In this document: in pieces, positions 24,991 through 40,218 of the stretch | How the letters are laid out: each line of letters opens with the position of its first letter | Numbering within the stretch: the first letter of the stretch is position 1 | NCBI RefSeq assembly: GCF_008710285.1 | Contig: NZ_VYQF01000001.1 | Span: forward strand, 806,001-870,000 | Length of the DNA stretch: 64,000 bases | Reading direction: 5' to 3' | Source of the DNA: Ginsengibacter hankyongi | GTDB taxonomy: Bacteria; Bacteroidota; Bacteroidia; Chitinophagales; Chitinophagaceae | Program-made: the position numbers and the translations under genes | Notes under the pieces: model-generated | What the model was told of the DNA's origin: nothing | The model's input: the letters and a program-made list of their open reading frames with translations, nothing else | The model's database searches: none

Positions 24991-25067
24991 ATTTTTGCCA
25001 AATCTTCTTTCGTGTAGCCTCAACCGTAAGAAAACGACTTCTTTACAGCAGTTATAAATAAAAACTT

Positions 25068-27791
25068 TTAATCGTCAACATCTGTTCTTTCTTTTTTTGG
25101 GATCGTCATCCGCTTAGGATAAGGCGTATCGCCCTTTGAGGCAAACCAAAGTATCCTGTTAAGGAGATCATCATTGCCGCCGTCAATATGGTCGAATTCC
25201 GGCAACGAAGACTGGAGAGAAAATTTTCTGGCCTTGCCTGATAAGGCCGAAGCTTTCTTATTCATTTCATCCAGCGGGATGTTATTCTTTAAAAAAGAAT
25301 ACGTCTCCTTATTAGCCATCTCATTAAAGCAATCAAACATTGGCAGCGCGGTTGCGTCCATTACATTCATTGGTGGTAAACCCAAAATTTGTTCAATCGT
25401 TCTAACTATGCAGGTTTGATTGTAATTCGTATGTATTGTTTTTTTGAGATGAGAATACGGGCTGATTACAAATCCCGTGGTGCGATACGCAGAAACGTGA
25501 TCCCAGCCGTCTTGTGAATCGTCCTCAGTAATAAACACAACCGTCGAATCCCAGAAACGGCTTCTTGTAAGGCCTTCTATTATTTTCCCCAATGCAAGAT
25601 CATTATCTGCTACCATCGCCCTGGGAGTTGGAAATCCCTGTGCCATGCCCGAAGTATGATCGGCAGGCAGCGCAAGAATCATTAAATCAGGTAATTGATC
25701 GCCGGGCTTTTTTTCAATTTCATTCAGCTCATTTAAAAATTCATCAGCCCGAAGCTGGTCTGTAAATTTATGCCCGTCATAACAAGGATAATCCTTTGAC
25801 ATTACAGGCCGGACCCGTGAGATAGTTGTTGTATTTGTAAATTCGGTTTTGCCACCATTAAGATAAGTTTGATAAATCTTTGTCCAATCTAAACTTTCAT
25901 CAAATTCGGGCACACATGCTTCGCCATATATTCTCACCGTTTTGCCATGGTCCAGCGCATTGTTCCAGATGAAACCCTTTTTATTATAAACAAGAGCGTC
26001 ATACAAAACGTGCGGATAACTTCTAAACCATGCCCTCACATTTTTTTCAACATAGTCTGTAACAATCGCCGCATCGGTCCATGAATGCCCTTCAGCAGAC
26101 GATTTACCGGATGCATAATAATTATCTAAAAGCAAATAATCTTTTGCCAGCTTATGTTGATTAGGCGTTACGTTATTTCCGTAAATGCATAATGAACTTT
26201 GGCCATCGCCTTCCTTCATGTCGCCCAATACCTGGTCGTATGTCCTGTTTTCTTTAATGATGTAAACCACGTGTTTAAAAACTGAGGGCTCGCCAATTCT
26301 TTCAGGCACCGGCTTTGAAGCAACTCCTTTTCTTGGCAGAAGGCCTGTAAATCTTGTACGGAATATTAAGTTAGCGGCTTCTACTCTCTTCGTGTATGCG
26401 TTTAAGATGGTATCACCCGGCAGCGCTATAATTGAAACAGTAGCTTGTTGGCGGTGGCTGTTATAACTACCGTCAGTTGCCGTTCTTGCTCCTTCTCCTT
26501 CTAGGTTGGCAACAAACAACATGTTCTTTGTTAGCACTAACCCTGCGGGATAAGCTTCTGTTGGTATAAACCCTGTAACTCTAGACACTTCTTTGCCGGA
26601 TGACGAAGATTTTTTGCCCAACGCTACTACCGCCACCGCATTATCCATTCCATTTGAGACATATAATTTATCGCCCGCTTCGTTTACGGCGAGAGCGTTA
26701 GGCGAATCTCCAATAAACGTATTCGCACCATCTGTTAGCTTTACTGAGATGGATTCTGATATTTTATCCTTCGATGCGTTTATCACGGAAATATTATCAC
26801 TGTTTCCATTAGCAGCATAGATAAATTTATGATCACCGGCGGCGATAATTGCGTTGGGATGCAATCCAACTTCCATTTCCTTTTCAAGCTTGCCGGTTTT
26901 TAAATTAAAAATACTTACTGTTCCGGAGGAAGTCGCCCCGGTTTTTGCATCAACATACACCTCTCCGTAAGGAATACCCGCTGTTTCCTTTGAAGTGTCG
27001 GTTGGTACAGAGCCTGCCCAATTGGTAACGTATGCTTTTGATGCAGTTAATGCAATGCCGAACGGCGCCATTCCGGTAGCGGCTGTCCAAATAATTTTTT
27101 TATCCCTTAACCTTAATTTCGAAAGTTGGTTGTTACCGTTTAATACTACATACAAATAATTTTCCCCTGCTTCTTTATTAATCGCAATATCGTTGGGCAA
27201 CGCCATTGGCGCAGGTGTAACTGTTGCAAAAGAGATTGAATCTTCGATTAGCGCTTTATTACCGTCCCATGAAGCGCTAAGAATGAGTGACAGATTATTA
27301 TAAGGGTTAGCAGCGCCCCATAGAACATGAGTTCCGTGGTCATCCTCATAAACTTTTATCCCGGAATAAGTACTCATCAGCCCTTTGTAGTTTCCGGAAT
27401 AATCCAGGTGAAATAGCAGTTTATTTTCCGCTACATCAATGAAAGCCACTCCATACCTGTCTTCCACTGCCAACACCTTTTCGCCCGGTAGCAACACACA
27501 ATCCAGGCTATGATTTTCAAGCGCTGAATTGCCAAAACGGATCACCGTTCCTGCAGGATCTATAAAGCGATTATTAGGCATGAGTATAGAACTATTATCA
27601 ACCGTCAAAGTAGTATCATCATAATTGCTATGATAATTTTCATCGGTGGTAACAGACGATTTATAAATGCGGGTAGTTTTACACGACGCAAAAACTAACC
27701 AAGCGAGAAACAAAAAGATTTTGCAAGGACCGGTAAGCGCGGAGAAATTGATTTTTGCAATGGAATTATTATAAATATATTTTATTCTCAT
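25068..27791 (-). CDS. Lipoprotein with YncE-like beta-propeller and alkaline-phosphatase-fold domain
   Basis: A 907-aa exported protein. A hydrophobic segment ends in the lipobox-like FASC (Cys at about residue 37). Residues about 60-470 form a YncE/SMP-30-like beta-propeller with repeated PNA(I/L)A-type blades. Residues about 500-860 form a phosphoesterase of the alkaline phosphatase/phospholipase C superfamily (VVYIIKENRTYDQVLGDM, then ALPADHTSG and ITEDDSQDGWDHV, with metal-ligand Asp/His). This bifunctional arrangement is common in Bacteroidota, but its substrate is unknown. It is on the same strand as the phosphonate operon, 382 bp after its last gene. A role in releasing phosphate from extracellular esters is plausible but inferred. 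Confidence 0.88.
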   Translation of the reverse strand: MRIKYIYNNSIAKINFSALTGPCKIFLFLAWLVFASCKTTRIYKSSVTTDENYHSNYDDTTLTVDNSSILMPNNRFIDPAGTVIRFGNSALENHSLDCVLLPGEKVLAVEDRYGVAFIDVAENKLLFHLDYSGNYKGLMSTYSGIKVYEDDHGTHVLWGAANPYNNLSLILSASWDGNKALIEDSISFATVTPAPMALPNDIAINKEAGENYLYVVLNGNNQLSKLRLRDKKIIWTAATGMAPFGIALTASKAYVTNWAGSVPTDTSKETAGIPYGEVYVDAKTGATSSGTVSIFNLKTGKLEKEMEVGLHPNAIIAAGDHKFIYAANGNSDNISVINASKDKISESISVKLTDGANTFIGDSPNALAVNEAGDKLYVSNGMDNAVAVVALGKKSSSSGKEVSRVTGFIPTEAYPAGLVLTKNMLFVANLEGEGARTATDGSYNSHRQQATVSIIALPGDTILNAYTKRVEAANLIFRTRFTGLLPRKGVASKPVPERIGEPSVFKHVVYIIKENRTYDQVLGDMKEGDGQSSLCIYGNNVTPNQHKLAKDYLLLDNYYASGKSSAEGHSWTDAAIVTDYVEKNVRAWFRSYPHVLYDALVYNKKGFIWNNALDHGKTVRIYGEACVPEFDESLDWTKIYQTYLNGGKTEFTNTTTISRVRPVMSKDYPCYDGHKFTDQLRADEFLNELNEIEKKPGDQLPDLMILALPADHTSGMAQGFPTPRAMVADNDLALGKIIEGLTRSRFWDSTVVFITEDDSQDGWDHVSAYRTTGFVISPYSHLKKTIHTNYNQTCIVRTIEQILGLPPMNVMDATALPMFDCFNEMANKETYSFLKNNIPLDEMNKKASALSGKARKFSLQSSLPEFDHIDGGNDDLLNRILWFASKGDTPYPKRMTIPKKERTDVDD

Positions 27792-28173
27792 TCTATTTCA
27801 TTTTTAAAAGTACCAACTTTCTCTTTTATGCCAATGGCAAAAGCTATAATGCATTTAATGAAACATAAAAGAATGAAAGTTCTCGCAAAAGTATTTCATT
27901 AAACAGTAAAGTTTTAACCCCGTCTTCGTTGATTATCGGCTTAATTCTGCAAATAAACCCTGGGAGTTAGTAATAACGCATCAACCCCAATTCATTTATC
28001 TTCCTTAGATTTCGTTGTTTTATTATTAAATGATTATGCAAATGCGGGAAAAAACCGGGTAACCCTTTTCAGTCCGTAAGAGTTTAAAAAGCATATACGA
28101 TTAACCGCTAGTAACAAAAACTTACGAATAAAATGAGACAATGAAATAGGTCTTAGCGATAATGGTCAATGAA
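27792..28173. other. Intergenic region without recognised genes
   Basis: These 382 bp separate the end of the phosphonate operon from the propeller/phosphoesterase gene. No ORF above 25 codons with protein-like sequence, no RNA fold of a known class and no convincing terminator were found. It should contain the promoter of the downstream minus-strand gene. Confidence 0.5.
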
Positions 28174-29301
28174 TTATGAAATGGTACCCACCATTTCTTC
28201 GGCAAGCCCAAAGGATAAAGTCATACCTGCACCGCCCAGTCCATTTAGGATATAAACACCTTCTTCAGCCTGTATAAAAACATCCGTTTTACCATCAGTC
28301 ATTTTTGGATAAATACCATGCCACGACTGAACAAGTTTCCAGTTGTCGACAATGGCAAATCTTTTAAGATAAGTTGTAATTAAATCATTGATGTAAGCTT
28401 CGTCAAATGGTGAAAATGTTGATCCGTATTCATGCGAATCACCCACGGTAAGTTCGCCTTTTCCATTTTGGGAAACCATAACATGAACGCCTAACTGAAG
28501 ATATTCACTTAATTCATTCTGGTACCTTTCTTTCAGCAAAGGTAATGATGGAGCAGCTTTGAAACTCTCATAATGGATAAGCGATAACCCGCCACATAAA
28601 GAAGTACCAATTCTAAATTTAGATTCACTACTTATATACCGCATCATTTGGAGTTTGCATTTGGTAAGTTGCAGCTCAGCAAATTTTTCAGGGTATAATG
28701 TTTCAAAATCGGCGCCCGAGCAAATAAAAATAATATCAGCCTGGATGGTTTCATCACCCATCATTACTTTATTTCTTTCAACTGCCACTACATTTTTATT
28801 CCATATAAATTGAACATTGTGATTCTCTATTAAATACAAAGGCAATGCTGCAATTGCCTCCCGCGGATCAATGATTAATTCTGTTTTGCAGAATAAACCA
28901 CCGATTAAGTTATGATGATTAACGCCATTTACTTTTTCGCCTATTTGAGTAGGATTCATTAACTCAACGGACCGACCATTTTTATTAAAAGCTTCATTTA
29001 ATTCCTGTAAAACTATCCACTCATCTTCATGGTAGGCAAGATGAATGCTTCCACATTCATCGAACCAGAAACCGGCAGCATCAGCAATTTCCTTCCAAAT
29101 ATTTCTGCTGCGAAATGCACGATTATACATTTTCCCATCTGGCTGTCCAATGGGCCATATCATTCCAAAATTTCTTACAGATGCACCAACGGCCATACCC
29201 GACCTTTCTACAACAGTTACCGTAAATCCGTTTAAAGAAAGTGCACGCGCCGTAGCAAGGCCCACTATGCCCGCACCTATTACAACAGCTGATTTATTCA
29301 T
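28174..29301 (-). CDS. TIGR03364-type FAD-dependent oxidoreductase of phosphonate clusters
   Basis: A 375-aa member of the DAO/glycine-oxidase family. There is an N-terminal Rossmann FAD motif (VVIGAGIVGLATARALSLNG) and a C-terminal FAD contact (GVYILNGLGGAGMTLSFG). The RNFGMIWPIGQPDG segment after the first FAD motif is typical of the subgroup linked to phosphonate catabolism. Related enzymes oxidise 2-aminoethylphosphonate or its N-methyl form to phosphonoacetaldehyde. Here it lies with a phosphonatase-like hydrolase and a PhnZ-like oxygenase in one operon that lacks the PhnW transaminase, so it may supply the aldehyde. Substrate preference is inferred. Confidence 0.85.
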   Translation of the reverse strand: MNKSAVVIGAGIVGLATARALSLNGFTVTVVERSGMAVGASVRNFGMIWPIGQPDGKMYNRAFRSRNIWKEIADAAGFWFDECGSIHLAYHEDEWIVLQELNEAFNKNGRSVELMNPTQIGEKVNGVNHHNLIGGLFCKTELIIDPREAIAALPLYLIENHNVQFIWNKNVVAVERNKVMMGDETIQADIIFICSGADFETLYPEKFAELQLTKCKLQMMRYISSESKFRIGTSLCGGLSLIHYESFKAAPSLPLLKERYQNELSEYLQLGVHVMVSQNGKGELTVGDSHEYGSTFSPFDEAYINDLITTYLKRFAIVDNWKLVQSWHGIYPKMTDGKTDVFIQAEEGVYILNGLGGAGMTLSFGLAEEMVGTIS

Positions 29302-29322
29302 GAAGGCTTATTGATTTTCTTT

Positions 29323-30663
29323 TTAGTAAATGAGGACAGATTTCTTAAGATCTAAATTTTCCGAATTAATGACTTCTGTTTTAACGAAATCATCTTTATA
29401 TTTTTTATTAAAATAACGGAGTGCCATAAACGTTCCGATAACTCCTATAACCGACAAGTACATTACACCATTAGAATACACGGTTGCCCATGGCAATTTA
29501 TTGGTGAAGGCAGATTTACTGATGATAACAATTACACTGCCCATGTAACCAAATGAGTCGGCCACGTACATTAGAAAGCCAACATTTCCACCTTTTTTAA
29601 AAGTGGCAATGAGGCGTTCAAATATGATACAATTAAAAGGAATATAGCCAATATATAGTCCGAGCCCAACTAATGTCATCCACATAAAGGGAGAAAGATG
29701 ATGGTTAATAAACATCCACGAACTGATGCCCGACAATAAAAATCCTGCTACAATCATAATGTGCGTAATCACAAGCGCCTTGCGATTATTGCGAATAAGA
29801 ATCATACTGCCAATCAAAATCAAAACAATAATAGTTATGGGAATTTCTGTCGCGCTAAACACTGATGGCTGGTTGCCAAAACCCAATTCCCGCCATATAT
29901 CGGCGGCGAAATTATCGCGGATATCACGGAAAACTGTAAGGAACACATACAAAATAATAAGTACAACCAGGCCATATGAAAATTGGGAAAAGAAATTTTT
30001 TCTCTCTGCTTTGGACATTGGTAAACGAACAACACGATGTTCAATATCGGATTGCGATGGCAAAGGAATCTTCTCTAATAAATAAACAAAAAATAGTAAG
30101 GGCAGGATAAACAAAAGCCCCGTTAGAAAAGGAAGCCACCAGTCGGTAACATTAAAATTAACCTTTAAATATTCAGCAACAGATTTTACAAAACCTGATG
30201 AAAAGATAAAACTCACGGCAAGCGAAGCCCCAATAAAATCAGTTGCTTTTCTCCCTTCAACATAAGAAAAAACAATACCCCAAATGATACCTAGCGGGAA
30301 ACCATTTATTAATAAAAAAATAATATTATACGGAGCAGAAACCAGTGCGAAAAGTAACAATGAGGCCCATGAAATACCCACCAATAATATAATTATTTTT
30401 CCCCTGCCAATGTTTTTTAATTCTGCTATAAATTTTATTCCAAAAAATTTACTCAGCATGTAACCGAATACCTGGCTTATTACCAAAGCATCTTTATAAG
30501 CCAATCCAAAAATAAGAGGTGCTTTGCTGAAACTTCCGACTGTAAAGGGTTTTCTAAATGCATAGACCGACGCGTATGTAGCGAATGTAATAAGGGAGGC
30601 AAACACGGCAACATAAGTATCGTGGTACTTTTGCCGGTGTTTTTTTAATAATATGGCCTGCAT
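29323..30663 (-). CDS. DUF5690 family membrane transporter (MFS-like)
   Basis: A 446-aa protein with about 12 membrane helices. It begins with VFASLITFATYASVYAFRKPF, which resembles the GlpT/UhpT organophosphate:phosphate antiporter branch of the MFS. A central cytoplasmic loop (about residues 205-230) separates the two halves. The start is 1 bp after the hydrolase stop and the FAD oxidoreductase follows after 21 bp, so it is in the operon. It is the only inner-membrane carrier in the locus and is the best candidate for cytoplasmic uptake of the phosphonate. Confidence 0.82.
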   Translation of the reverse strand: MQAILLKKHRQKYHDTYVAVFASLITFATYASVYAFRKPFTVGSFSKAPLIFGLAYKDALVISQVFGYMLSKFFGIKFIAELKNIGRGKIIILLVGISWASLLLFALVSAPYNIIFLLINGFPLGIIWGIVFSYVEGRKATDFIGASLAVSFIFSSGFVKSVAEYLKVNFNVTDWWLPFLTGLLFILPLLFFVYLLEKIPLPSQSDIEHRVVRLPMSKAERKNFFSQFSYGLVVLIILYVFLTVFRDIRDNFAADIWRELGFGNQPSVFSATEIPITIIVLILIGSMILIRNNRKALVITHIMIVAGFLLSGISSWMFINHHLSPFMWMTLVGLGLYIGYIPFNCIIFERLIATFKKGGNVGFLMYVADSFGYMGSVIVIISKSAFTNKLPWATVYSNGVMYLSVIGVIGTFMALRYFNKKYKDDFVKTEVINSENLDLKKSVLIY

Positions 30664-30664
30664 A

Positions 30665-31348
30665 TTAAAGTATTAAAGAAGGCAAAAATTCCAAGGAATC
30701 TATAATATAGTCGGGTTGATATTTTACCAATTGATCTTTCGTGTAGGCGCCGGTAGTTACACTCACCACAATTCCGCACCCCGCATTCCGGCCTTCTTCA
30801 ATATCCACTTTTGTATCACCAACTTTCGCCACATCATCTGCAAAACTGATGTTCAGTTTTTGCATGAGTTTTTCTATCATAAAAGGGTGAGGCCTGCCTT
30901 CAGAAACTTCATCGCTGCATATAACTTCGTCTATGAACGATGCCGCATCCCAACCTAATCTTTTTAATATTGGAGTAGTAATCGTTCTTGTAAAACCTGT
31001 GTTAAGCGCCACTTTCACTTTATTATTTTGCAGTTCGCGGAAAACTCTTTCAGCATAAGGTAACGGCACAAGCCCTTCGTATGTTTCATAATGCAATACC
31101 ATTTGATTATTAAAATCTCGGTGAATAGTTTCAATAAATTCTACATCATTTTCATAACCGGGTTTATACTTTTCAACTATTATTTCTATTGCCTCTTTTT
31201 TTCTATAGCCCATAACCTCATCTACATCGGCAACCTCTACCTCTGCTATTCCTACATTTGAAAAAGCTTTTCTAAAAACATCATTGATATTGCCTTCATC
31301 TGCAACGGTGGTTCCCGCAATGTCAAATACTACCAGTTTAATACTCAT
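30665..31348 (-). CDS. Phosphonatase-like HAD hydrolase (TIGR03351 type)
   Basis: A 227-aa HAD hydrolase. Motif I reads VVFDIAGTTVAD, with the nucleophile Asp and the Ala/Gly-Thr-Thr pattern of phosphonatases. Motif II threonine is in ALNTGFTRT. The C-terminal GRPHPFMI and KVGDTKVDIEEG carry the Lys/Asp ligands for Mg2+. The cap-domain MGYRK keeps a lysine four residues after Met-Gly, as does the Schiff-base lysine region of phosphonoacetaldehyde hydrolase PhnX. It likely splits phosphonoacetaldehyde or a close analogue into an aldehyde and phosphate. Gaps are 4 bp to the upstream gene and 1 bp to the downstream gene. Confidence 0.87.
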   Translation of the reverse strand: MSIKLVVFDIAGTTVADEGNINDVFRKAFSNVGIAEVEVADVDEVMGYRKKEAIEIIVEKYKPGYENDVEFIETIHRDFNNQMVLHYETYEGLVPLPYAERVFRELQNNKVKVALNTGFTRTITTPILKRLGWDAASFIDEVICSDEVSEGRPHPFMIEKLMQKLNISFADDVAKVGDTKVDIEEGRNAGCGIVVSVTTGAYTKDQLVKYQPDYIIDSLEFLPSLIL

Positions 31349-31352
31349 TAAT

Positions 31353-31925
31353 TTATTTTTTAGTCAGGTGATTGATCATCATGTCCCGGTAATGTTGTAA
31401 TTCCGGCAGGGGAAGCCGTTCTTCTTTTGCCTTCTCATCCCATGCTCTTAAAGTAATGTATAGACTGAACCATTCTTCTTTTTCAAAATGCATTGCTTCG
31501 TTATCATTCATTCGTCCGCCCTGGAAATTTAATGTGGCCTTACTAGCTTCCGATAGTTGATTATAATAGACAGGATTTTTGAAAGTGAGGTAACGTTTTG
31601 CATCTACGTGCGATGCAATTAACCTGGTGATTTTTTCTGAAAAGCCTTTTTCTTTAAGATAATCTGCACCAATCTTTTCATGATCTGCTATTCCAAAATC
31701 ATCCATATAATTTACCGGCATAATGTGCTCACATAAATGGCCTAAGTCATGAAAAAACGCAGCGAGGATTACTTCGTCATCATAATTTTCTTTCTCGGCT
31801 AATTGTGCGCATTGGCACATGTGTTCAATTTGAGAAACGGGTTCGCCAATATAATCCTGGTCGCCATACATTTTGTACAGCCCCAATATTTCATCGGCGA
31901 TTTTTTCAGCTTCTGAATTTTCCAT
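31353..31925 (-). CDS. PhnZ-like HD-domain oxygenase of phosphonate degradation
   Basis: A 190-aa HD-domain protein. It begins with the PhnZ landmark YIGEPVSQIEH, whose Tyr and Glu gate the di-iron site in PhnZ. It continues with the FFHDLGHL (HD) pair, DHEKIGADYL and ASHVDAKRYL metal ligands. PhnZ cleaves the C-P bond of 2-amino-1-hydroxyethylphosphonate with O2, giving glycine and phosphate. No PhnY hydroxylase gene lies in the window, so the substrate may differ or the partner may lie elsewhere. Its start codon overlaps the stop of the upstream phosphatase-fold gene, implying translational coupling. Confidence 0.87.
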   Translation of the reverse strand: MENSEAEKIADEILGLYKMYGDQDYIGEPVSQIEHMCQCAQLAEKENYDDEVILAAFFHDLGHLCEHIMPVNYMDDFGIADHEKIGADYLKEKGFSEKITRLIASHVDAKRYLTFKNPVYYNQLSEASKATLNFQGGRMNDNEAMHFEKEEWFSLYITLRAWDEKAKEERLPLPELQHYRDMMINHLTKK

Positions 31926-33004
31926 TATTTATAGATTGTAGTTATTGGTTGGGCTATTGGATGGTTTGCGGTAAAAGTAAAGCCCAGCAATTTTGCAAAC
32001 GTTGCTGCCAGTTGCTCCTGGTACAATATATTTTTATTTTTCATTTCGCCGCCGGGCTTGGTATCAGGCCCTAAAGCTGCAATCCATATATGGCCGGCAT
32101 CTTTAATTTTTTCACCATGATCTGTCCAGTTCTCTTTAGGATTATCGCCCCTTCCATGATCGCAAGTGATGATCGAAGTTGTTTTGTTTTTATACTGTGG
32201 TGTTGATTGAATATAGTTCCATAAATCTGCTATCATGCCATCCTCCGCATGTGCGCTTCCCAAATAAAGATTATACATACCCGCATGCGCCAAATCATCT
32301 GTTTCATCAAAAGCTATGTACAAAACTTTAGGTTTCCTTTCTTTCATGTATTCCCTGGCGGCAATATAAGTAAGCACATCAGGACGTACACCAATGGGGC
32401 GTGTGGTAAGAGATTCTATATCATCAATAAGCCTGAATTTTTCAGTGATGTAAGGCAAAGAATCCGTATCGCTGTTTACATAAATTCCACTTTCCCATTT
32501 ATTAAAAATATAAGGAAATGCATCCCATGTGGTAAACGCTGCTACTTTATTTTTAAAACCATTTTGCTGGTTGAGAAACCCTAAAACATTACTGTTTTTA
32601 TTTGGAATTTTATCATTGGAATTTACAGTCGTGTCCGGATAGCCTGTGAAAATTTCATTATATCCCGGGTAGGAAAATTTGTACCGGTTGGCGTTATTCA
32701 CCTTATTTCCATCCCACCTGTTTCCGTATAACTGTCCCTTACTTACAATAGTGCTCCATAAAAACGGAAATAATTTTTTTCTTCTTTCTTCAATACTATT
32801 ACTCCAGAATTTTGAACTGGTTTCTGCGCTATCTTTTGTAAAGTCATTATTTTTTAATAAAGCAGAATCAGCACCTCCATACACTTCCTGCCAGCGCATT
32901 CCATCCAAGGTTACTATTACCAGGTTTTCAGTTTTTAATTGCGCTGACGTTTTTTGCGTAACATTAAACACAAACAGGAAAACAATAGCTATATATTTAT
33001 TCAT
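31925..33004 (-). CDS. Exported alkaline-phosphatase-superfamily hydrolase
   Basis: A 359-aa protein with a signal peptide (about residues 1-21, ending TSAQ). Fold landmarks are the metal-ligand Asp in IVTLDGMRWQEVYGG, the nucleophile region SYPGYNEIFTGYPD, DETDDLAHAG, TCDHGRGD and a late His in DAGHIW. It belongs to the family that includes phosphodiesterases, phosphoglycerate mutase and phosphonoacetate hydrolase (PhnA). Being periplasmic, it could free a phosphonate head group from an ester before uptake; this is inferred from position, first in the operon after SusD. The substrate is unproven. Confidence 0.82.
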   Translation of the reverse strand: MNKYIAIVFLFVFNVTQKTSAQLKTENLVIVTLDGMRWQEVYGGADSALLKNNDFTKDSAETSSKFWSNSIEERRKKLFPFLWSTIVSKGQLYGNRWDGNKVNNANRYKFSYPGYNEIFTGYPDTTVNSNDKIPNKNSNVLGFLNQQNGFKNKVAAFTTWDAFPYIFNKWESGIYVNSDTDSLPYITEKFRLIDDIESLTTRPIGVRPDVLTYIAAREYMKERKPKVLYIAFDETDDLAHAGMYNLYLGSAHAEDGMIADLWNYIQSTPQYKNKTTSIITCDHGRGDNPKENWTDHGEKIKDAGHIWIAALGPDTKPGGEMKNKNILYQEQLAATFAKLLGFTFTANHPIAQPITTIYK

Positions 33005-33019
33005 AAATTTTTTTTAAAA

Positions 33020-33045
33020 AAGGCAGAACCAAAAGGCTCCGCCTT
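33020..33045 (-). terminator. Terminator or attenuator between susD and the phosphonate catabolic genes
   Basis: On the minus strand an 8-bp stem (33038-33045 with 33020-33027, one G-T pair) is followed by a T-rich run. It lies in the 73-bp gap between the SusD gene and the phosphatase-fold gene. It may lower expression of the enzyme genes relative to the SusCD pair. Confidence 0.6.
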
Positions 33046-33077
33046 CGCATAAGAAAAACCAGTCTGCAAAATTCTAT

Positions 33078-34709
33078 TCATTTTAAGAGCCACATAGTTT
33101 GGTTGAGGTCATCTGCAGAATATTGTTGAGCAGATAATGCAGCATTCCAATTGGCTTTGTTTTGTGTTTGTTCCGAAACCGGGTAAGCCCATCTTTTAGG
33201 TATAACTCCGTTGTTACCAACACCGGCACCGGCCTGGAATGCAGGAACACCTGTTCTGCGCCAATTATAATAGGGTTCATATCCTGAGTTTTCAAAACAG
33301 GCTATATATTTCTGCAGAACTATTTGGCTAATCGCTGTTGAAGGAGTTGAAGAAAGTTTTACCGAAGGTTGATTATAATAATTTGAAAAATTAAATGCGA
33401 ACGGATACGGCGCCACCTGGGTAACGGAATTTGCACCTGCCGGTAAAAAATATGCTGTAAAATTTGATTGCTTTATATCGATACCATAAAATGCCATGGA
33501 AGCGGTAATTCCTTCCTTATACCAGTCTTCCGCATCAACATTATTCTTGCCGGGAACCCAGCCCCGAACGATTGCTTCAGCAATATTGAAACACATTTCC
33601 TTATAGCCTACTAAAACATCCGGCTCCCCGATAAAATTTGAATAATAACGATGCCTGTTAATAAATGAATATAATCCTGCACTTGCATTACCGTACATGC
33701 TTTGAACAGACTCGCCGGTGCTGGCTCCCACAAAATATTTAAATTGTGCAGGGTTGGGATCATTCAGCGCAAGAGCAGTTGCCGGTTCGCACGTAATAAA
33801 AACACGCGGATCACTTAACGTTGTAAGTGCACTTACATAGGTAGCTGCCATATTATAACGTCCCGCAATAGAACCAAAATTACTTGGATTAAAAGGATAA
33901 GTACTATAAGTATTTGATCCGCCGGGATTATAAGCAAACGAGAAATCATCAGTTTGATTTTCAAAAATGGGATACTTTGCCGGGTTATCAATAATACTGG
34001 CAAACCGTGCAGGCACATTCAATGTTGCATCGGAAGCTTTATTACTAACGCTGACGAGCACACGAAGTTTAAAAGTATTTACCAGCTTTTGCCACGCAGC
34101 AAGATTGCCATGGTAGTATATATCCTGCGAAGCCGATAACGAATTGTCATTGGCAGCAATCAACGATGTAAAATCGGCGTTAGCTGTATCCAATTCGTTT
34201 AACACGTATTGAAACACCTGTTCCTGTGGCGTGTAAGCAGGTTTGGAATTGTTAGAACCCTGCAGCGCTTCGGTCAATGGAACATCACCAAATAAGGACG
34301 TAGTATTATAAAAGTAGTAAGCACGGATAAACCTCCCTACAGCTTCATAAGGGTTTACATTTGATGCTCCGCGTGAAGTTGCTTCCTTTTCCATTTGAAT
34401 CACATTCTTTATAACCAGGTACGGATTAAAGGAGCCATCTGTCCATGAATAAATATTGTTACCATAATAATCATAATTCTGGCAATGATATTGATTCCAC
34501 GCCTGCACATTATCCCAGGAGTTGATACCGCCCAATCCGCCTGCGCTTCCTGTTCCGGATAGATCCGTTAACACAGTTCCTAAAATTAAACCTGGAGGAA
34601 CACTGGTGGGGTTATTGGGGTCAAGTTGCTTTTCCTGGATTTGTTTTTTGCAGGAAACCATAAGCCAGGTTCCTATAGTTATTAAAAATATATATTTTAT
34701 CTGTTTCAT
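33078..34709 (-). CDS. SusD/RagB-family outer-membrane lipoprotein
   Basis: A 543-aa lipoprotein with signal peptide and lipobox ending WLMVSC (Cys20). The TPR-rich SusD fold is indicated by NPYEAVGRFIRAYYFYNTTSLFGDVPL, and the C-terminal region ends in the usual RRTGVPAFQAGAG-type segment. SusD proteins cap the SusC porter on the cell surface and bind the substrate. The start is 20 bp after the susC stop; the two form the uptake module in front of the phosphonate genes. Confidence 0.95.
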   Translation of the reverse strand: MKQIKYIFLITIGTWLMVSCKKQIQEKQLDPNNPTSVPPGLILGTVLTDLSGTGSAGGLGGINSWDNVQAWNQYHCQNYDYYGNNIYSWTDGSFNPYLVIKNVIQMEKEATSRGASNVNPYEAVGRFIRAYYFYNTTSLFGDVPLTEALQGSNNSKPAYTPQEQVFQYVLNELDTANADFTSLIAANDNSLSASQDIYYHGNLAAWQKLVNTFKLRVLVSVSNKASDATLNVPARFASIIDNPAKYPIFENQTDDFSFAYNPGGSNTYSTYPFNPSNFGSIAGRYNMAATYVSALTTLSDPRVFITCEPATALALNDPNPAQFKYFVGASTGESVQSMYGNASAGLYSFINRHRYYSNFIGEPDVLVGYKEMCFNIAEAIVRGWVPGKNNVDAEDWYKEGITASMAFYGIDIKQSNFTAYFLPAGANSVTQVAPYPFAFNFSNYYNQPSVKLSSTPSTAISQIVLQKYIACFENSGYEPYYNWRRTGVPAFQAGAGVGNNGVIPKRWAYPVSEQTQNKANWNAALSAQQYSADDLNQTMWLLK

Positions 34710-34729
34710 ATTTTGTGCTTTTACGGGTA

Positions 34730-37700
34730 TTAGAATGATAGATTTACGTTGAAGCCATAACTGCGTGTGGTGGGAGTTTGCAAGCCAGAGCCCGAATCCT
34801 GGGTGTATTGATCTACGTCCAAATCTTTATATTTATTTGGAAAGAAGTATAATAAATTCCTGCCCACCAAAGAGACCGTTGCTTGTTTGATAAAAGACCT
34901 GTTACCAAATACATTTTGTGGCACGAGATAAGTAAACGTTACTTCCCTTAATTTGGCATAAGTCTTTTTAATAATGTCTAGGTCGGGGATGGAAGCCATA
35001 CGGGTAACGAAAGGCTGAACCTGGCTTTTGGTAGTATTTTGTGTTACCGTTAAATCTTTATAGTTCGTAATTTCCCCAGTTATAGGATCGAGGATTATAG
35101 GTGCCCCGGTCAGGTTAACTCCACTGCCAGTATAAGCTGCCACATTTGCTTCGTCAGAAGGCCTTGCTGCTCCGAAAGCTCCTGTGGCACTTTCTATATG
35201 GCGTCCGCCTTGCAATGTTTTCTTTCTAACGTAATCTTCCATTACACCGCCCACCATTCCATCAAATTGAAAATGTAATGAAAAGCTTTTGTAGCTCACC
35301 ATGTTCACAAGCCCCCACTGCCAATCAGGATCTGAATGCCCAAATACTTTTTGTGCTGAAACGCCCAAATCAGAAAACCGTGTATAAACTCCGGTTGCCG
35401 GATCGATAACCATTTTGCCATCCGGTGTTCTTACAAATGCATTTCCATAAACCAAATCAATCCTCTTGCCATTGTATTCATAACTATTAGGGTTGGCATC
35501 ATTTACCCATTTTCTTATATAAGAGGAGAAGTTGGCAGTTACATTCCAGCTAAATCCATTCGGATGTGTAACAGGACGGGCATTCATAGTAACTTCCCAT
35601 CCGTCGTTAGTGTATACGTTACCGTTAGTTAGGTAAGATGAATATCCGGATGCTGATGATGTTCCCTGGTTTACAATACCTGTGTTTCTATAATGGTAAT
35701 GGGTTATATCAAACGCTAATTTGTTGTTAAGGAAACGAATATCAGCACCAAACTCAGTAGCTTTTCTGTCAGCAGTAAAAATGGTAGGGCTTACTGTTTG
35801 ATCACTGTATTTAGCACTATTTTGACTTGAGTAAGTTGGACTTAATGAATAGGGCTGTGAAAATTGGTAGCCAGGTCCTCCGTACGGTGAATTCCAGGTA
35901 TAACCATAATCGCCGGCCGGCGTAGCGCTCACATTGGGGGAGAAAAGCGGAGAAGTGCCTCCGTCCTTACTCTCTGCATAAGAACCTCTCAATTTTAAAA
36001 ATGATATTGCTTTTGGCAAGTGCATGTATTCAGAAACCACCGTTGCCAGGTTAAATGATGGATAATAATAACTATTGGTATTGCTAGGTAATGCAGATGA
36101 TTTATCAACACGGCCCGTAACGTTAGCCGTTAAGTAAGATTTGTATCCCGCATCTACCGAGTAATAAGCGCTTAAAACCAGCATGCTCGAACGAAAACTA
36201 CTTCCCGTTAAAGTTCCCTTGGAGTTAGAAAAAGAATAAATGCCGGGAACATTCAAATAATTGGTAGATTCAAAGTTAGAATTGAAACTGAAATTCCTTG
36301 CGGTTGCACCCGCTAATGCCTGAACATCTAAAAATCCCAATATATTATCTTCATGATATCTCGCTTGTGCGTCTACGTTAGTCTCGAATAAAGACCTCCT
36401 GTCTTCGCGGTAATCTCCCTGGTGAAGTTCTCTTCCATATACGTCCGCTGAATAAGGCAACTTTTCTGAATTAACCATGTCGTATGCAGTCATACTTGGC
36501 CTGAATTGAAAATCAATATTATTATTGAGTTTATAATTCAATGATAAGTATCCATATTCGTTATTCTGGTAATGGCCTCTTAACCATTCGTAAGACATAA
36601 ACCAGGGATTATTATACCGGTAATACTCCGCGTAGTTTTGCTGGATTCCTGTTTTGCCCGGCTGCCAGTAGTTGCGGATATTAGGATCATTTACATTCCA
36701 GTCTGCACCGCCCCAAAGTATAAAATTGTATATGATACTATTAGGGCCATAACTTACATCAGGTACATTTGGTGTTGATTGCCTGCTATAATTGAAATAA
36801 GATGTCAATGAGAATTTCCTATTAAATCTTTCTACAAGGCTTACTGTAAAGTTTCCATTATTTAATTGTGTGTTTGGAACAATGCCACGCTGGTACGTAT
36901 TTCCCACTGAAAGCCGAAAATCTGTTTTATCAGTTGATGAACCCACGGAAATACTGTTAGACTGAAGAAGACCTGTTTGTAAAAACTTTTTCAAATTATC
37001 TTTACCTCTTGCCACCCACGGTGTTGGCACAACGTGGCCTGTATACTTGGTTCCATCAGCAAAAACGGTCGTGAAAGTTTGAGATGGATCATAAACACCA
37101 TCGTACTGCGGTAATAACTGACCCCTGAATTGCGGGCCCCACACATCATAATCATAGTCATTTATACCAACCCCAACGGCTCCGTTTCCAAAGTATGAAG
37201 CCGGGCTTGAACCCCCACCACCGAATGCGTACTTACCATTATCGCCGGGGCCGTACAAATCATTGTATTTAGGTAAAGCAATAAATCCTTTATTAAATTG
37301 GGTGCTTGAATTAAATGTAACCTGCAGCCCCCTTTTATCTTTAGTTCCTTTTTTTGTAGAAATAATAATGGCACCGTTCTTTCCCTGGAAGCCATATAAT
37401 GCTGCTGCATTTGGGCCTTTTAGAATGGTAAATGTTTCGATGTCATCAGGGTTAAGATTGTAAGTATCAGAACTAATAGGAACACCATCCACTACAAATA
37501 ACGGACGGTTATTCGGATCATTTTCTCCGCGGATAATTACGTCCGGGGCATGGCCAATTTCGGAGTTAATATTTATAGCAAGGCCTGCAGCATTGCCTTT
37601 CAAGGAATTGATAGGATCTGCCTCCCGTGCTTTCGTTAACGCAGCAGCGTCGATTGTTTGAATAGAATATCCCAAACGCTTTGCTTCTTTTTTTATGCCT

Positions 37701-38050
37701 GTCGCCGTTATAACAACTTCATTTAATTGTTGCGTGGAAGCAGTCAGTTGAATCGTAATATTTTTTTGCGAAGCATTTATTTCTTTTGGTTCATATCCCA
37801 CAAAAGATGCAAGAATTTTGCTGTTTTTTGGAGCGTCTATAGAAAAATTCCCATTTACATCTGAAGAGGTTCCGACGCTGGAATTCTTAATTGAAATACT
37901 CACCCCTGCAAGAGGAGACTTATTTGCCGCATCAATAACTTTCCCTTGAATTTTATTGCCCTGGGCATAAATAAAAGGAGTTATAAAAAATAAAAATACT
38001 GTGAGAAATATAGTTCCCGTAAAAGGGAGGTTGGGTCGCTTCATAACCAA
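34730..38050 (-). CDS. SusC/RagA-family TonB-dependent outer-membrane transporter
   Basis: A 1106-aa protein. It has a signal peptide (about 1-29), an N-terminal carboxypeptidase-regulatory-like beta-sandwich (about 33-115, IQGKVIDAANKSPLAGVSI), a TonB-box-proximal LNEVVITATG, a plug domain (about 120-235, with the RGENDPNNRPLFVVDGVPIS landmark) and a 22-strand barrel ending in NVNLSF with a C-terminal aromatic residue. It imports a ligand captured by SusD using TonB energy. It is the first gene of the locus; no ECF sigma/anti-sigma pair or hybrid two-component regulator is next to it. Confidence 0.96.
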   Translation of the reverse strand: MVMKRPNLPFTGTIFLTVFLFFITPFIYAQGNKIQGKVIDAANKSPLAGVSISIKNSSVGTSSDVNGNFSIDAPKNSKILASFVGYEPKEINASQKNITIQLTASTQQLNEVVITATGIKKEAKRLGYSIQTIDAAALTKAREADPINSLKGNAAGLAININSEIGHAPDVIIRGENDPNNRPLFVVDGVPISSDTYNLNPDDIETFTILKGPNAAALYGFQGKNGAIIISTKKGTKDKRGLQVTFNSSTQFNKGFIALPKYNDLYGPGDNGKYAFGGGGSSPASYFGNGAVGVGINDYDYDVWGPQFRGQLLPQYDGVYDPSQTFTTVFADGTKYTGHVVPTPWVARGKDNLKKFLQTGLLQSNSISVGSSTDKTDFRLSVGNTYQRGIVPNTQLNNGNFTVSLVERFNRKFSLTSYFNYSRQSTPNVPDVSYGPNSIIYNFILWGGADWNVNDPNIRNYWQPGKTGIQQNYAEYYRYNNPWFMSYEWLRGHYQNNEYGYLSLNYKLNNNIDFQFRPSMTAYDMVNSEKLPYSADVYGRELHQGDYREDRRSLFETNVDAQARYHEDNILGFLDVQALAGATARNFSFNSNFESTNYLNVPGIYSFSNSKGTLTGSSFRSSMLVLSAYYSVDAGYKSYLTANVTGRVDKSSALPSNTNSYYYPSFNLATVVSEYMHLPKAISFLKLRGSYAESKDGGTSPLFSPNVSATPAGDYGYTWNSPYGGPGYQFSQPYSLSPTYSSQNSAKYSDQTVSPTIFTADRKATEFGADIRFLNNKLAFDITHYHYRNTGIVNQGTSSASGYSSYLTNGNVYTNDGWEVTMNARPVTHPNGFSWNVTANFSSYIRKWVNDANPNSYEYNGKRIDLVYGNAFVRTPDGKMVIDPATGVYTRFSDLGVSAQKVFGHSDPDWQWGLVNMVSYKSFSLHFQFDGMVGGVMEDYVRKKTLQGGRHIESATGAFGAARPSDEANVAAYTGSGVNLTGAPIILDPITGEITNYKDLTVTQNTTKSQVQPFVTRMASIPDLDIIKKTYAKLREVTFTYLVPQNVFGNRSFIKQATVSLVGRNLLYFFPNKYKDLDVDQYTQDSGSGLQTPTTRSYGFNVNLSF

Positions 38051-38506
38051 TTAATTTTTTTTGATTGAGCGGCAAAACTATCTTTCGAATGTTAAGGATT
38101 TATTAAAGGCGTATGAACAAAAAGTTATGAAAAGGTTAAGCGAATAATTCCGTGTGAGAGCAAGAATGTAAAAAGTTATCTCCCTTGCTTATATACAAAC
38201 TCAAACCATTAAGTTCGACTAAAAACCCTTACTAGACAAGGCTTTCATAAAAAAAGATGCAATACTATAAATTCAAAAGGCGAATAACCGATCGATATGG
38301 TTTTATCAATAGCTGTATTAAGACCATCTTTTGCCACTATAAATCTTCGGATAAAATATTTTTTTTAAAACGGCGTTTAAGCTTATCCGTTACATTGCTT
38401 TTTTAAAAATAAATTTGGCAAGCATTCCATTTTTTTACTTTCTGATAACTCCCAGGCGAGTAATTTCTGTAGCTAATTCATCTTCATCATTTAATTATCT
38501 TAAAAT
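38051..38506. other. Promoter-bearing intergenic region upstream of susC
   Basis: On the minus strand TAGTTTTG (38073-38080) is a full match to the -7 consensus TAnnTTTG, 23 bp before the susC ATG. No clear TTG -33 element was found at the expected 17-23 bp distance. The rest, up to the tRNA terminator, contains no supported gene; a 49-codon + strand frame at 38257 is basic low-complexity and was rejected. Confidence 0.5.
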
Positions 38507-38541
38507 AAAAAACCTTGAAAGTAAATACTAACAAGGTTTTT
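38507..38541 (-). terminator. Terminator of tRNA-Leu(UAA)
   Basis: Read on the minus strand, an AAAACCTTG/CAAGGTTTT stem with a 14-nt loop is followed by a T-rich run, 10 bp after the tRNA 3' end. Confidence 0.65.
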
Positions 38542-38550
38542 AAAATCTAC

Positions 38551-38639
38551 TGGTACCCGGGATGGGAGTTGAACCCACACGACCATTGCTGATCACAGGA
38601 TTTTAAGTCCTGCGTGTCTACCAGTTCCACCACCCGGGT
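38551..38639 (-). tRNA. tRNA-Leu (anticodon UAA)
   Basis: A class II tRNA with a 7-bp acceptor stem ACCCGGG/CCCGGGT, discriminator A and encoded CCA. The anticodon arm is CAGGA-CTTAAAA-TCCTG (anticodon TAA), with a long variable arm, and the T arm contains GTTCAAC. It is complete. Confidence 0.95.
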
Positions 38640-38667
38640 AAACACATTTGTAAAAAATCAAAAAAAA

Positions 38668-38684
38668 TCCCGACCGGGTCGGGA
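38668..38684 (-). terminator. Hairpin terminator between tRNA-Gly and tRNA-Leu
   Basis: An inverted repeat TCCCGAC/GTCGGGA with a 3-nt loop. On the minus strand a run of T residues follows. It lies 8 bp after the 3' end of tRNA-Gly, so the two tRNAs are probably separate transcripts. Confidence 0.75.
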
Positions 38685-38691
38685 AATTATG

Positions 38692-38764
<73 letters not shown>

Positions 38765-38824
38765 AAATGTTAAGAACTAAAAAATGGATTGCAAAAGTAA
38801 TAATTACACTTGCTTAAGCAAAAT

Positions 38825-39046
38825 TTATTTGTATTGCGGATTGTACAAAGTATTACCAGGAACTTCCACTTCTGGTTTACCAGTGTACCTGTGCTTATAC
38901 ATTGTATAACATCCACCCAAAACCAGCGCAATAAATATTATTATCTGGCAATAAAAAAGAAAACGTGAAGAGGAAACCCAATTATGAGCAATATCCTTAT
39001 CCGAATTATCAAGATCTGAATTATCAAGAACTTCTTCGTGTTCCAT
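38825..39046 (-). CDS. Small single-pass membrane protein of unknown function
   Basis: A 73-aa protein. An acidic N-terminus (about 1-25, with the repeated LDNSD) is followed by one membrane helix (about 30-50, FYCQIIIFIALVLGGCY) and a short Pro/Glu-rich tail. No family was recognised. It is transcribed with tRNA-Gly downstream and the glycosyltransferase upstream on the same strand (44-bp gap). The sequence looks protein-like and has a normal ATG start. Confidence 0.6.
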   Translation of the reverse strand: MEHEEVLDNSDLDNSDKDIAHNWVSSSRFLFYCQIIIFIALVLGGCYTMYKHRYTGKPEVEVPGNTLYNPQYK

Positions 39047-39090
39047 ATATTAAATTTTGCACGGCAAAAATAACCGATTGAGCTTAAAAA

Positions 39091-40122
39091 TCATTTTTTA
39101 AGAGGAATAATTTCAGAAAATGTTTTTTTCTTTTTTATAAAATATTGCCAAACGATACTCCTGTCATATACAGAAACAATAGTTTTCATTTTTAATTTGG
39201 GAAATTTTTCTCCTCGTTTGCCAATCAAAAGCCATTCTGCATAATGCATGTGCGCAGATGCAATTGAAATGAAAGTACTAAAATTACCATCAACTAAAGA
39301 ACGGTAAGCTGCTATTACATCCAGGAAAATTCGTAATGGAATTTTCCAAACCTTTTCCGCCACAGGCAAATTTTTAGTGATCATTACAAGGTTGTTCCTG
39401 AAGTTGAGGAAAACTTTTTTCCTGCTGCCCATTGGTAGCGCGCCTCCGCCAACATGATACACAACCGAAGCGGGAACTACGTAAATTATATAGCCTTTCC
39501 GCTGCATTCGCCAGCATAAATCAATCTCTTCCTGGTGGGCGAAAAAAAATTCATCAAAGCCATTTAATTCGTGAAATACTTTTGCTCTTACAAATAAAGC
39601 CGCGCCGGTAGCCCAAAAAATTTGCATTGCATTATCGTATTGGCCGCTATCGGTTTCGCAGGTTTCGAATATGCGGCCACGTGAAAACGGGTATCCTAAT
39701 ATATCGATAAAGCCGCCGGAAGCGCCGGCGTATTCGAATTTAGTTTTCTCCGTATACGATAAAACTTTTGGCTGGCATGCGGCAATTTTTTCATCTGATT
39801 CCATCAATGAAATAACAGGCTCAATCCAATCCGCGGTCACTTCCACATCGCTGTTCAGTAAAATATAATAATCAGCCGAAACCTGCTGTAATGCGGTATT
39901 ATAGCCTTTGGCAAATCCTTCATTTATGTTGCTCAATATTATTTTTATAGCAGGATAATTCTTTTTCAAAAAATCAACTGAATCATCGTCAGACGCATTA
40001 TCAGCAACAATAACACTAAAGTTATTATAGGTAGATTCCAATACGAAAGGAAGAAATTTTTCCAGGAATGGTTTTCCATTCCAATTAAGGATAACAACAG
40101 CTACAGATGGTAAAGAGATCAA
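39091..40122 (-). CDS. Family 2 glycosyltransferase
   Basis: A 343-aa GT-A enzyme. It begins VAVVILNWNGKPFLEKFLP, then VIVADNASDDDS (nucleotide-binding Asp) and LLNSDVEVTADW (the DxD-equivalent). The acceptor-side FFAHQEEIDLCWRMQRKGY motif is typical of rhamnosyltransferase-like GT2. A C-terminal amphipathic or membrane-associated stretch follows. It probably adds a sugar to a lipid- or polysaccharide-linked acceptor on the cytoplasmic face. The frame lacks an ATG at its 5' end; the TTG at 40122 directly precedes the conserved N-terminus, with an in-frame stop two codons before. Confidence 0.9.
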   Translation of the reverse strand: MISLPSVAVVILNWNGKPFLEKFLPFVLESTYNNFSVIVADNASDDDSVDFLKKNYPAIKIILSNINEGFAKGYNTALQQVSADYYILLNSDVEVTADWIEPVISLMESDEKIAACQPKVLSYTEKTKFEYAGASGGFIDILGYPFSRGRIFETCETDSGQYDNAMQIFWATGAALFVRAKVFHELNGFDEFFFAHQEEIDLCWRMQRKGYIIYVVPASVVYHVGGGALPMGSRKKVFLNFRNNLVMITKNLPVAEKVWKIPLRIFLDVIAAYRSLVDGNFSTFISIASAHMHYAEWLLIGKRGEKFPKLKMKTIVSVYDRSIVWQYFIKKKKTFSEIIPLKK

Positions 40123-40218
40123 AATTTATTTTATTAATAAACACAAACATAAAAATTTTAGATTTCAATTCTGATAATTATCGGAAATAGCTTTTAGATT
40201 TGATAAGAATCATTTTTA

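Follow-up and report, generated by a model that had tools for sequence, protein, structure and literature searches.

Phosphonates are a sizeable pool of phosphorus, and the familiar systems for their uptake are mostly ABC-type importers. In Flavobacterium, clusters built on the PusCD pair, which is induced by phosphate depletion, are stated in one sentence to contain phosphonate-degrading enzymes (Lidbury et al., 2020; PMC8115612), and FAD oxidases of the PbfD group have been described together with PhnX, and without PhnW, in PbfD2-PhnX clusters (Zangelmi et al., 2023; PMC10590968). Here we analyzed a seven-gene locus of Ginsengibacter hankyongi (Chitinophagaceae, Bacteroidota) in which a SusC-SusD (SusCD) pair stands beside candidate phosphonate enzymes. 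The locus lies on the minus strand at positions 28174-38050 of a 64,000-nucleotide stretch of contig NZ_VYQF01000001.1, the whole of which is referred to as the window. We consider it likely that this locus is a phosphonate-specialized phosphate-utilization system.

As in the PusCD clusters, SusC and SusD homologs are adjacent in the window locus and are accompanied by candidate phosphonate enzymes and by exported proteins predicted to be phosphomono- or diesterases (PF01663 and PF04185), and induction by phosphate depletion, reported for PusCD, is suspected here. The principle of phosphonate enzymes beside SusCD is already in print, which lessens the novelty that an earlier note on this DNA had claimed; in the available text, however, the account of Lidbury et al. 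(2020) names no phn gene, regulator or phosphonate substrate. The window locus goes further in its defined pathway for 2-aminoethylphosphonate (AEP), an uncharacterized exported branch of the alkaline phosphatase (AP) superfamily and a DUF5690 carrier, and sister loci also have a local XRE-cupin regulator. With the PbfD2-PhnX clusters it shares a PbfD-group FAD oxidase and PhnX in the absence of PhnW, but the available text of Zangelmi et al. (2023) discusses neither SusCD nor an exported esterase and has PhnZ only in its introduction and references. A PhnZ-like oxygenase is common to the locus and the oxidative PhnY-PhnZ pathway for AEP, although no PhnY was recognized here and the substrate would need to arrive already hydroxylated. 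The order of SusC-SusD followed by an exported hydrolase also resembles polysaccharide utilization loci, from which the locus differs in having phosphoesterases and C-P cleaving enzymes and, by family scans of the window locus, no glycan-active enzyme. The available parts of two further papers (PMC8812569, PMC9426549) add no phosphonate SusCD locus, and no account of this set of genes, of its regulator or of how it is distributed was found in a literature search made mostly without subscription journals and preprints.

Gene Content of the Locus

The earlier note had described seven tightly spaced genes on one strand, and all seven were recovered there. They are listed below from susC downward, followed by a probable extra member.

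34730..38044, minus strand: SusC-like TonB-dependent transporter (TIGR04056, 445.4 bits, cut-off 368.25)
33078..34709, minus strand: SusD-like_2 surface lipoprotein (PF12771, 202.2 bits, over cut-off; PF12741, 125.1 bits)
31925..33004, minus strand: exported AP-superfamily enzyme, candidate phosphonate/phosphate ester hydrolase (PF01663, 26.7 bits, over cut-off)
31353..31925, minus strand: PhnZ-like HD-domain oxygenase (TIGR03276, 210.3 bits, cut-off 214.6)
30665..31348, minus strand: PhnX-like phosphonatase-type HAD hydrolase (TIGR03351, 185.7 bits, cut-off 218.9)
29323..30663, minus strand: DUF5690 carrier with a major facilitator superfamily (MFS) fold, candidate inner-membrane importer (PF18943, 532.7 bits, over cut-off)
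28174..29301, minus strand: TIGR03364 FAD oxidoreductase of HpnW/PbfD type (422 bits, cut-off 285.1)
25068..27791, minus strand: exported 907-aa lipoprotein that combines a beta-propeller with a PF04185 phosphoesterase domain, probably an extra member (PF04185, 45.9 bits)

The gaps between the seven genes, read downward from susC, are 20, 73, -1, 4, 1 and 21 bp, and a further 382 bp lead to the PF04185 gene. The susC start is an ATG at 38044, within a listed open reading frame (ORF) that begins with TTG at 38050. In SusC the family scan listed CarbopepD_reg_2 and Plug domains, with STN not among the listed matches, and the SusD lipoprotein signal was recognized by eye as the lipobox LMVSC. The absence of PhnW, PhnY and ABC transporter genes that the earlier note had remarked on was borne out: none was seen in family scans of ten locus and flank proteins, and the whole genome held no PhnW match at E 1e-20 and neither PhnD nor PhnJ.

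Conserved Association of SusCD With Phosphonate Genes

Conservation of the neighborhood was surveyed in 395 Bacteroidota genomes (G-codes below; L-codes are fetched loci). At a threshold of E 1e-60, 33 of the genomes had a TIGR03364 match, which was over the curated cut-off in 32, and SusCD was searched for beside it, as the earlier note had proposed. The window SusD had a match of some kind in 30 of these 33 genomes, and in 16 the best match lay within 10 kb of TIGR03364, where 0.13 would be expected; leaving out the window's own genome, the figure was 15 of 29. Conversely, close relatives of the window SusD (E 1e-60) occurred in only 17 of the 395 genomes, of which 14 had TIGR03364 (the exceptions were G007, G126 and G286). 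In stretches of up to 20 kb fetched around 32 TIGR03364 loci (the window being the 33rd), several of which end at contig ends, we found PhnX-like genes in 23, DUF5690 in 23, SusD in 16, SusC together with SusD in 14, PhnZ-like genes in 13 and AP genes in 12.

A second set was anchored on the AP enzyme and comprised the best 80 of at least 576 relatives, with flanks of up to 10 kb. The AP query was built from AP genes already in TIGR03364 loci, so this set leans toward phosphonate loci, and it overlaps with the first (L073/L154, L076/L171). The 80 loci held SusD in 55, PhnZ-like genes in 54, DUF5690 in 53, TIGR03364 in 48, PhnX-like genes in 44 and an XRE-cupin regulator in 24, and SusD and AP were adjacent on the same strand in 46. 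At least one of PhnZ, PhnX, TIGR03364 and DUF5690 was present in 50 of the 55 SusD-holding loci, and all four in 27. Among the 51 full-length loci, 37 had both SusD and phosphonate genes, nine had neither, three had SusD only and two had phosphonate genes only.

An ordinary glycan-uptake SusCD pair might adjoin a phosphonate operon by chance, as such pairs are common in the phylum and the organism's own genome has six SusD matches at E 1e-10, including the window SusD. With 16 linked genomes observed against 0.13 expected, and with gene order varying while the genes remain together, this explanation is hardly credible and was rejected. The link between SusCD and the phosphonate genes is not due to chance; gene order and orientation vary across loci, as would be expected of a functional, not merely inherited, linkage.

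Candidate C-P Bond Enzymes and Their Substrates

The best Protein Data Bank (PDB) matches of the PhnX-like protein were phosphonoacetaldehyde hydrolases. It retains DxAGT, which we take to be the nucleophile motif of phosphonatase-type HAD hydrolases, and its residues D9, A11 and K50 align with those of 1RQL, K50 at the position of the PhnX lysine that presumably forms the Schiff base. The PhnZ-like protein matched PhnZ structures (4MLM, 4N71, 4N6W; E about 4e-48, best 3.9e-48) and TmpB (6NPA). In alignment with 4MLM its His/Asp and Tyr/Glu columns were identical at the positions that we assume to be the iron ligands and the lid of PhnZ.

Published work on the TIGR03364 family points to the substrate. 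In the available text of Zangelmi et al. (2023; PMC10590968), PbfD1, annotated as TIGR03364, produces phosphonoacetaldehyde by oxidizing N-methyl-AEP; PbfD2 acts in this way on AEP as well and is thus able to replace PhnW. Among the 33 TIGR03364 genomes, PhnW was over its cut-off in seven, namely none of 16 that were SusD-linked and 7 of the 17 others, while one SusD-linked genome (G204) had a single sub-cut-off match; this distribution agrees with the published replacement of PhnW by PbfD2, and we infer that the window enzyme is of the PbfD2 kind. Known AEP genes were also found in related SusCD loci. In Limnovirga soli (G126), a SusC-SusD-AP-PhnZ...DUF5690 run encloses PhnA (496 bits, cut-off 407.55), phosphonoacetaldehyde dehydrogenase (665.1, cut-off 635.65) and PhnW (485.1, cut-off 400.8); no PhnX-like gene was found in this locus, and the FAD enzyme present is a different one, with 61 bits to TIGR03364. 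L057 has, adjoining SusCD, an over-cut-off match to the (R)-1-hydroxy-AEP ammonia-lyase PbfA. Taken together, the PbfD literature and PhnW distribution, the PhnX residues, the Limnovirga soli genes and PbfA in L057 point to AEP-type compounds as the substrate.

The PhnZ-like enzyme probably acts on (R)-1-hydroxy-AEP, as judged from sequence and gene context, because no PhnY was recognized, PbfA takes the place of PhnZ in the SusCD locus L057, and the two do not overlap: among the 32 TIGR03364 loci, PhnZ-like genes occurred in 13 and PbfA in five, never together (PbfA was identified by phmmer, and one case was verified against its model). As for PhnY, the four PhyH-family oxygenases of the genome scored at best 53.5, against a cut-off of 500, on the NCBI methylphosphonate-hydroxylase PhnY model, the AEP-specific PhnY having no model in the comparison. 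The earlier note had proposed C-P cleavage by two routes; these probably correspond to two substrates, with AEP and N-methyl-AEP handled via TIGR03364 and PhnX, and (R)-1-hydroxy-AEP via PhnZ.

Exported Enzymes and Ester Release

A signal peptide was recognized by eye in the AP enzyme. In an alignment of 58 sequences D34, D236, D282 and H283 were invariant and S111, H240 and H296 at least 90% conserved, positions that we take to have their usual roles in the AP superfamily. Its AlphaFold2 model (pLDDT 95) showed the AP-superfamily core in Foldseek, where the best 50 of 746 matches ranged across the superfamily (YejM, LtaP/LtaS, PafA, sulfatases), with a top query-based TM score of 0.60 for PafA. 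Sequence and model together make it a candidate ester hydrolase, which could be a mono- or a diesterase. Phosphonoacetate hydrolase activity was considered and rejected, as no NCBIfam family, the PhnA model included, matched at E 0.001.

Additional exported-type enzymes recurred in the 112 fetched sister loci: GDPD in 11, PF04185-propeller proteins in nine, calcineurin-type esterases in five and phospholipase C in three, counts that include some genes outside the cluster and, for GDPD, some loci with AP and no SusD. The phospholipase C of L126 is over its cut-off and located between SusD and PhnZ. All nine PF04185 relatives were inside or directly beside the cluster, right after TIGR03364 in L050 and L081 and between AP and SusD in L049; because of this placement, the window PF04185 protein (lipoprotein signal recognized by eye) probably belongs to the locus.

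The classical role of SusCD pairs is glycan import, and AEP-decorated glycans exist. The locus could accordingly be a true polysaccharide utilization locus, with SusCD importing phosphonoglycan fragments and the AP enzyme stripping AEP from the sugars. However, 50 SusD-bearing phosphonate loci contained 51 extra ORFs of at least 150 aa, and no glycoside hydrolase was found among the 21 that were scanned (the other 30 were assessed by eye from their first 50 residues only), nor was any recognized in the window locus. A family resembling glycoside hydrolase family 1 (GH1) occurred in four loci, of which the only member scanned, in L105, lies just outside a full cluster. A phosphonoglycan system is therefore disfavored and appears quite improbable. 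Of the earlier suggestion of a phosphonate-bearing polymer or lipid head group, the polymer finds no backing here, while head-group esters seem the likelier substrate, since the recurrent extra enzymes are of phosphodiesterase types and no glycoside hydrolase was recognized in the clusters.

Other AP-superfamily arrangements were also observed. L099 (10001-12245) and L115 (8851-11071) each have two AP-superfamily genes in tandem; in L115, GDPD-like genes are likewise present in tandem, and the search for phosphonate genes found none there. In L137 (8674-9948) and L128, SusC-SusD-AP runs are accompanied by sigma/anti-sigma-looking genes (by eye), again without the searched phosphonate genes, and may constitute a related system that acts on a different organophosphorus substrate; the L137 protein between SusD and AP has a weak, sub-cut-off metallo-beta-lactamase match. 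A second AP class is tied to phosphonate clusters in L043, L064 and L068, where TIGR03364 occurs with PbfA, PhnA, phosphonoacetaldehyde dehydrogenase and a GlpT/PgtP-like carrier; the AP-superfamily proteins of these loci are very large, at about 820 aa, and look exported, and no SusCD of the window type is present.

The DUF5690 Carrier

The AlphaFold2 model of the DUF5690 protein (pLDDT 93) has an MFS fold, and in Foldseek the human organophosphate carrier G6PT took ranks 1-2, with NorA and phosphate and sugar carriers close behind. The earlier description of this carrier as GlpT-like thus holds at the level of fold. At the level of sequence it is unsupported: no PDB sequence match was found, and a profile comparison with the GlpT/PgtP-like carriers of sister clusters was not significant (probability 1.6%). 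Such carriers were present in the clusters that lack DUF5690 (L043, L064 and L068; two of the three were scanned and fell under curated cut-offs). Of 25 genomes tested, three had a PhnD-type binding protein that scored over its cut-off.

Regulatory Sites

In several sister Chitinophagaceae loci an XRE-cupin regulator gene lies directly ahead of susC. In 14 of 24 XRE-cupin loci, as against 1 of 56 loci without the regulator, an exact palindrome, GTTTA-N7-TAAAC, lay no more than 300 bp ahead of susC; many regulator-bearing loci are closely related (Pedobacter, Mucilaginibacter), so these are not 14 independent events. The same palindrome lay within 300 bp of phnX in 10 of the 24 and none of the 56, and the 24 regulator loci held 41 sites in total, as opposed to 1.8 in shuffled sequence. 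Allowing one mismatch and using both locus sets, it was found in 26 of 31 regulator-locus susC upstream regions (five lacked it) vs. 5 of 27 others. In these relatives, the sites connect SusCD and the C-P enzymes with a single regulator.

Two candidate elements precede the window susC:

38113..38139, minus strand: Pho-box-like direct repeat TTAAC-N6-ATAAC-N6-TTCAT; a similar repeat precedes the genome's own pst operon
38073..38080, minus strand: Bacteroidota-type -7 promoter element TAGTTTTG, consensus TAnnTTTG

We take TAnnTTTG to be the Bacteroidota -7 consensus; 21 such elements were counted in 58 susC upstream regions, 14 of them 21-40 bp ahead of the start. The TTAAC-type repeat, chosen post hoc after the window promoter had been viewed, was present in 8 of 27 palindrome-free susC upstream regions (window and L073/L154 pair included), compared with 0.87 expected and a maximum of 2 in 30 shuffles. 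With one mismatch allowed it preceded 3 of 50 window genes, and genome-wide the three-copy pattern was rarer than its reversed control (18 vs. 60). A repeat of this type also precedes the gene heading the genome's own pst operon (L158, 3241-4428), which encodes a 395-aa, exported-looking protein with no family match, possibly a phosphate porin. The canonical Escherichia coli-type Pho box (CTGTCAT repeats) was not enriched before susC (1 of 27 at three or fewer mismatches, 0.3 expected), and generic promoter and terminator scans gave no signal above shuffles.

PhoB-like/PhoR-like pairs were found near 9 of the 80 AP-anchored loci, and 13 of the 80 are flanked by a metallophosphoesterase-glycosyltransferase pair that calls to mind lipid remodeling under phosphate starvation; these flank identities rest on scans of one kinase, one regulator, one glycosyltransferase and two phosphoesterases, and the scanned kinase and regulator fell under the PhoR and PhoB cut-offs. 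The TTAAC repeats, their likeness to the pst repeat, and these PhoB/PhoR-like and lipid-remodeling-like neighbors suggest phosphate control of the locus.

Proposed Function and Its Alternatives

In the proposed system, SusD would capture and SusC import esters of AEP-type phosphonates, the likeliest being lipid head groups or the glycerol esters of these. The AP enzyme, aided by the PF04185 phosphoesterase, would then free the aminophosphonate in the periplasm, and DUF5690 would move it into the cytoplasm. There the TIGR03364 oxidase would convert AEP and N-methyl-AEP to phosphonoacetaldehyde, the PhnX-like hydrolase would cleave this to acetaldehyde and phosphate, and the PhnZ-like oxygenase would convert (R)-1-hydroxy-AEP to glycine and phosphate. 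The gene set is probably turned on by phosphate starvation. What the analysis shows of this scheme is the gene content, its conserved association, the retained catalytic residues and candidate regulatory sites, from which the substrate, the release from esters, the induction, and the direction and cargo of SusCD and DUF5690 are inferred.

Several observations weigh against this proposal. It rests on sequence and predicted structure, and the AP enzyme, a candidate ester hydrolase, has no convincing PDB sequence match and no close solved relative. The PhnX-like protein is under both curated cut-offs (TIGR03351, as listed, and TIGR01422, 117.2 vs. 220), and the PhnZ-like protein narrowly misses that of TIGR03276. 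The window has neither the XRE-cupin regulator nor the palindrome. PhnW and the TIGR03364 enzyme are not strictly exclusive, as L104 has PhnW over its cut-off beside TIGR03364 and SusCD. Of the 32 TIGR03364-anchored loci, 16 had no SusD in the fetched stretch, some being cut by contig ends. Finally, SusC-SusD-AP runs had none of the four phosphonate and carrier genes in the fetched stretch in L115, L123, L128, L137 and the incomplete L148, and the same was true of L170, L172 and L173, from genomes with no TIGR03364 match at E 1e-60; in L128, L137 and L173 a single gene separates SusD from AP. The reach of the AP module is thus wider than phosphonates, and SusCD may serve phosphoesters in general.

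These runs (L148 apart), the GDPD genes that follow AP in several loci, and the small size of AEP, which permits passage through porins, would fit a general module for scavenging organophosphate esters, which the phosphonate enzymes adjoin as fellow phosphate-starvation genes while free phosphonates enter via porins and DUF5690. We regard this as rather unlikely, since phosphonate or carrier genes accompany SusD in 50 of 55 loci (in a set leaning that way), one palindrome stands ahead of both susC and phnX, and the SusD clade tracks TIGR03364 over 395 genomes. The claim of a phosphonate locus built on SusCD is backed by conserved co-location, by the regulatory sites shared within sister loci and by the swaps of known AEP genes.

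More tentatively, and as a possibility that we rate as plausible but short of probable, the phosphonate-specialized system may be modular, widespread among environmental Bacteroidota and devoted to the uptake of head groups of the phosphonolipid type. Of its three uncharacterized parts, the AP branch (serine at the nucleophile place, TLDGxRWQ...SYPGYNE) would hydrolyze phosphonate esters in the periplasm, DUF5690 would represent a new class of importers for aminophosphonates, and the XRE-cupin protein would sense phosphonates and bind GTTTA-N7-TAAAC. Such a SusCD route, if true, would explain how Bacteroidota without the familiar ABC importers gain access to ester-bound phosphonates. It would also give a function to DUF5690 and to the exported AP-superfamily branch, which has hundreds of relatives. 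The set of parts is well suited to asking whether SusCD pairs can specialize in phosphorus, not sugar.

Neighboring Features

Twenty-four PF00884 sulfatase matches, seven of them on one contig (C33), were found in the organism's own genome, pointing to the use of sulfated glycans elsewhere in this organism. An Rfam scan of positions 24000-41000 returned two tRNA genes and nothing else. These, tRNA-Leu and tRNA-Gly (38551-38764), lie directly ahead of the susC promoter region; insertions are common at tRNA genes.

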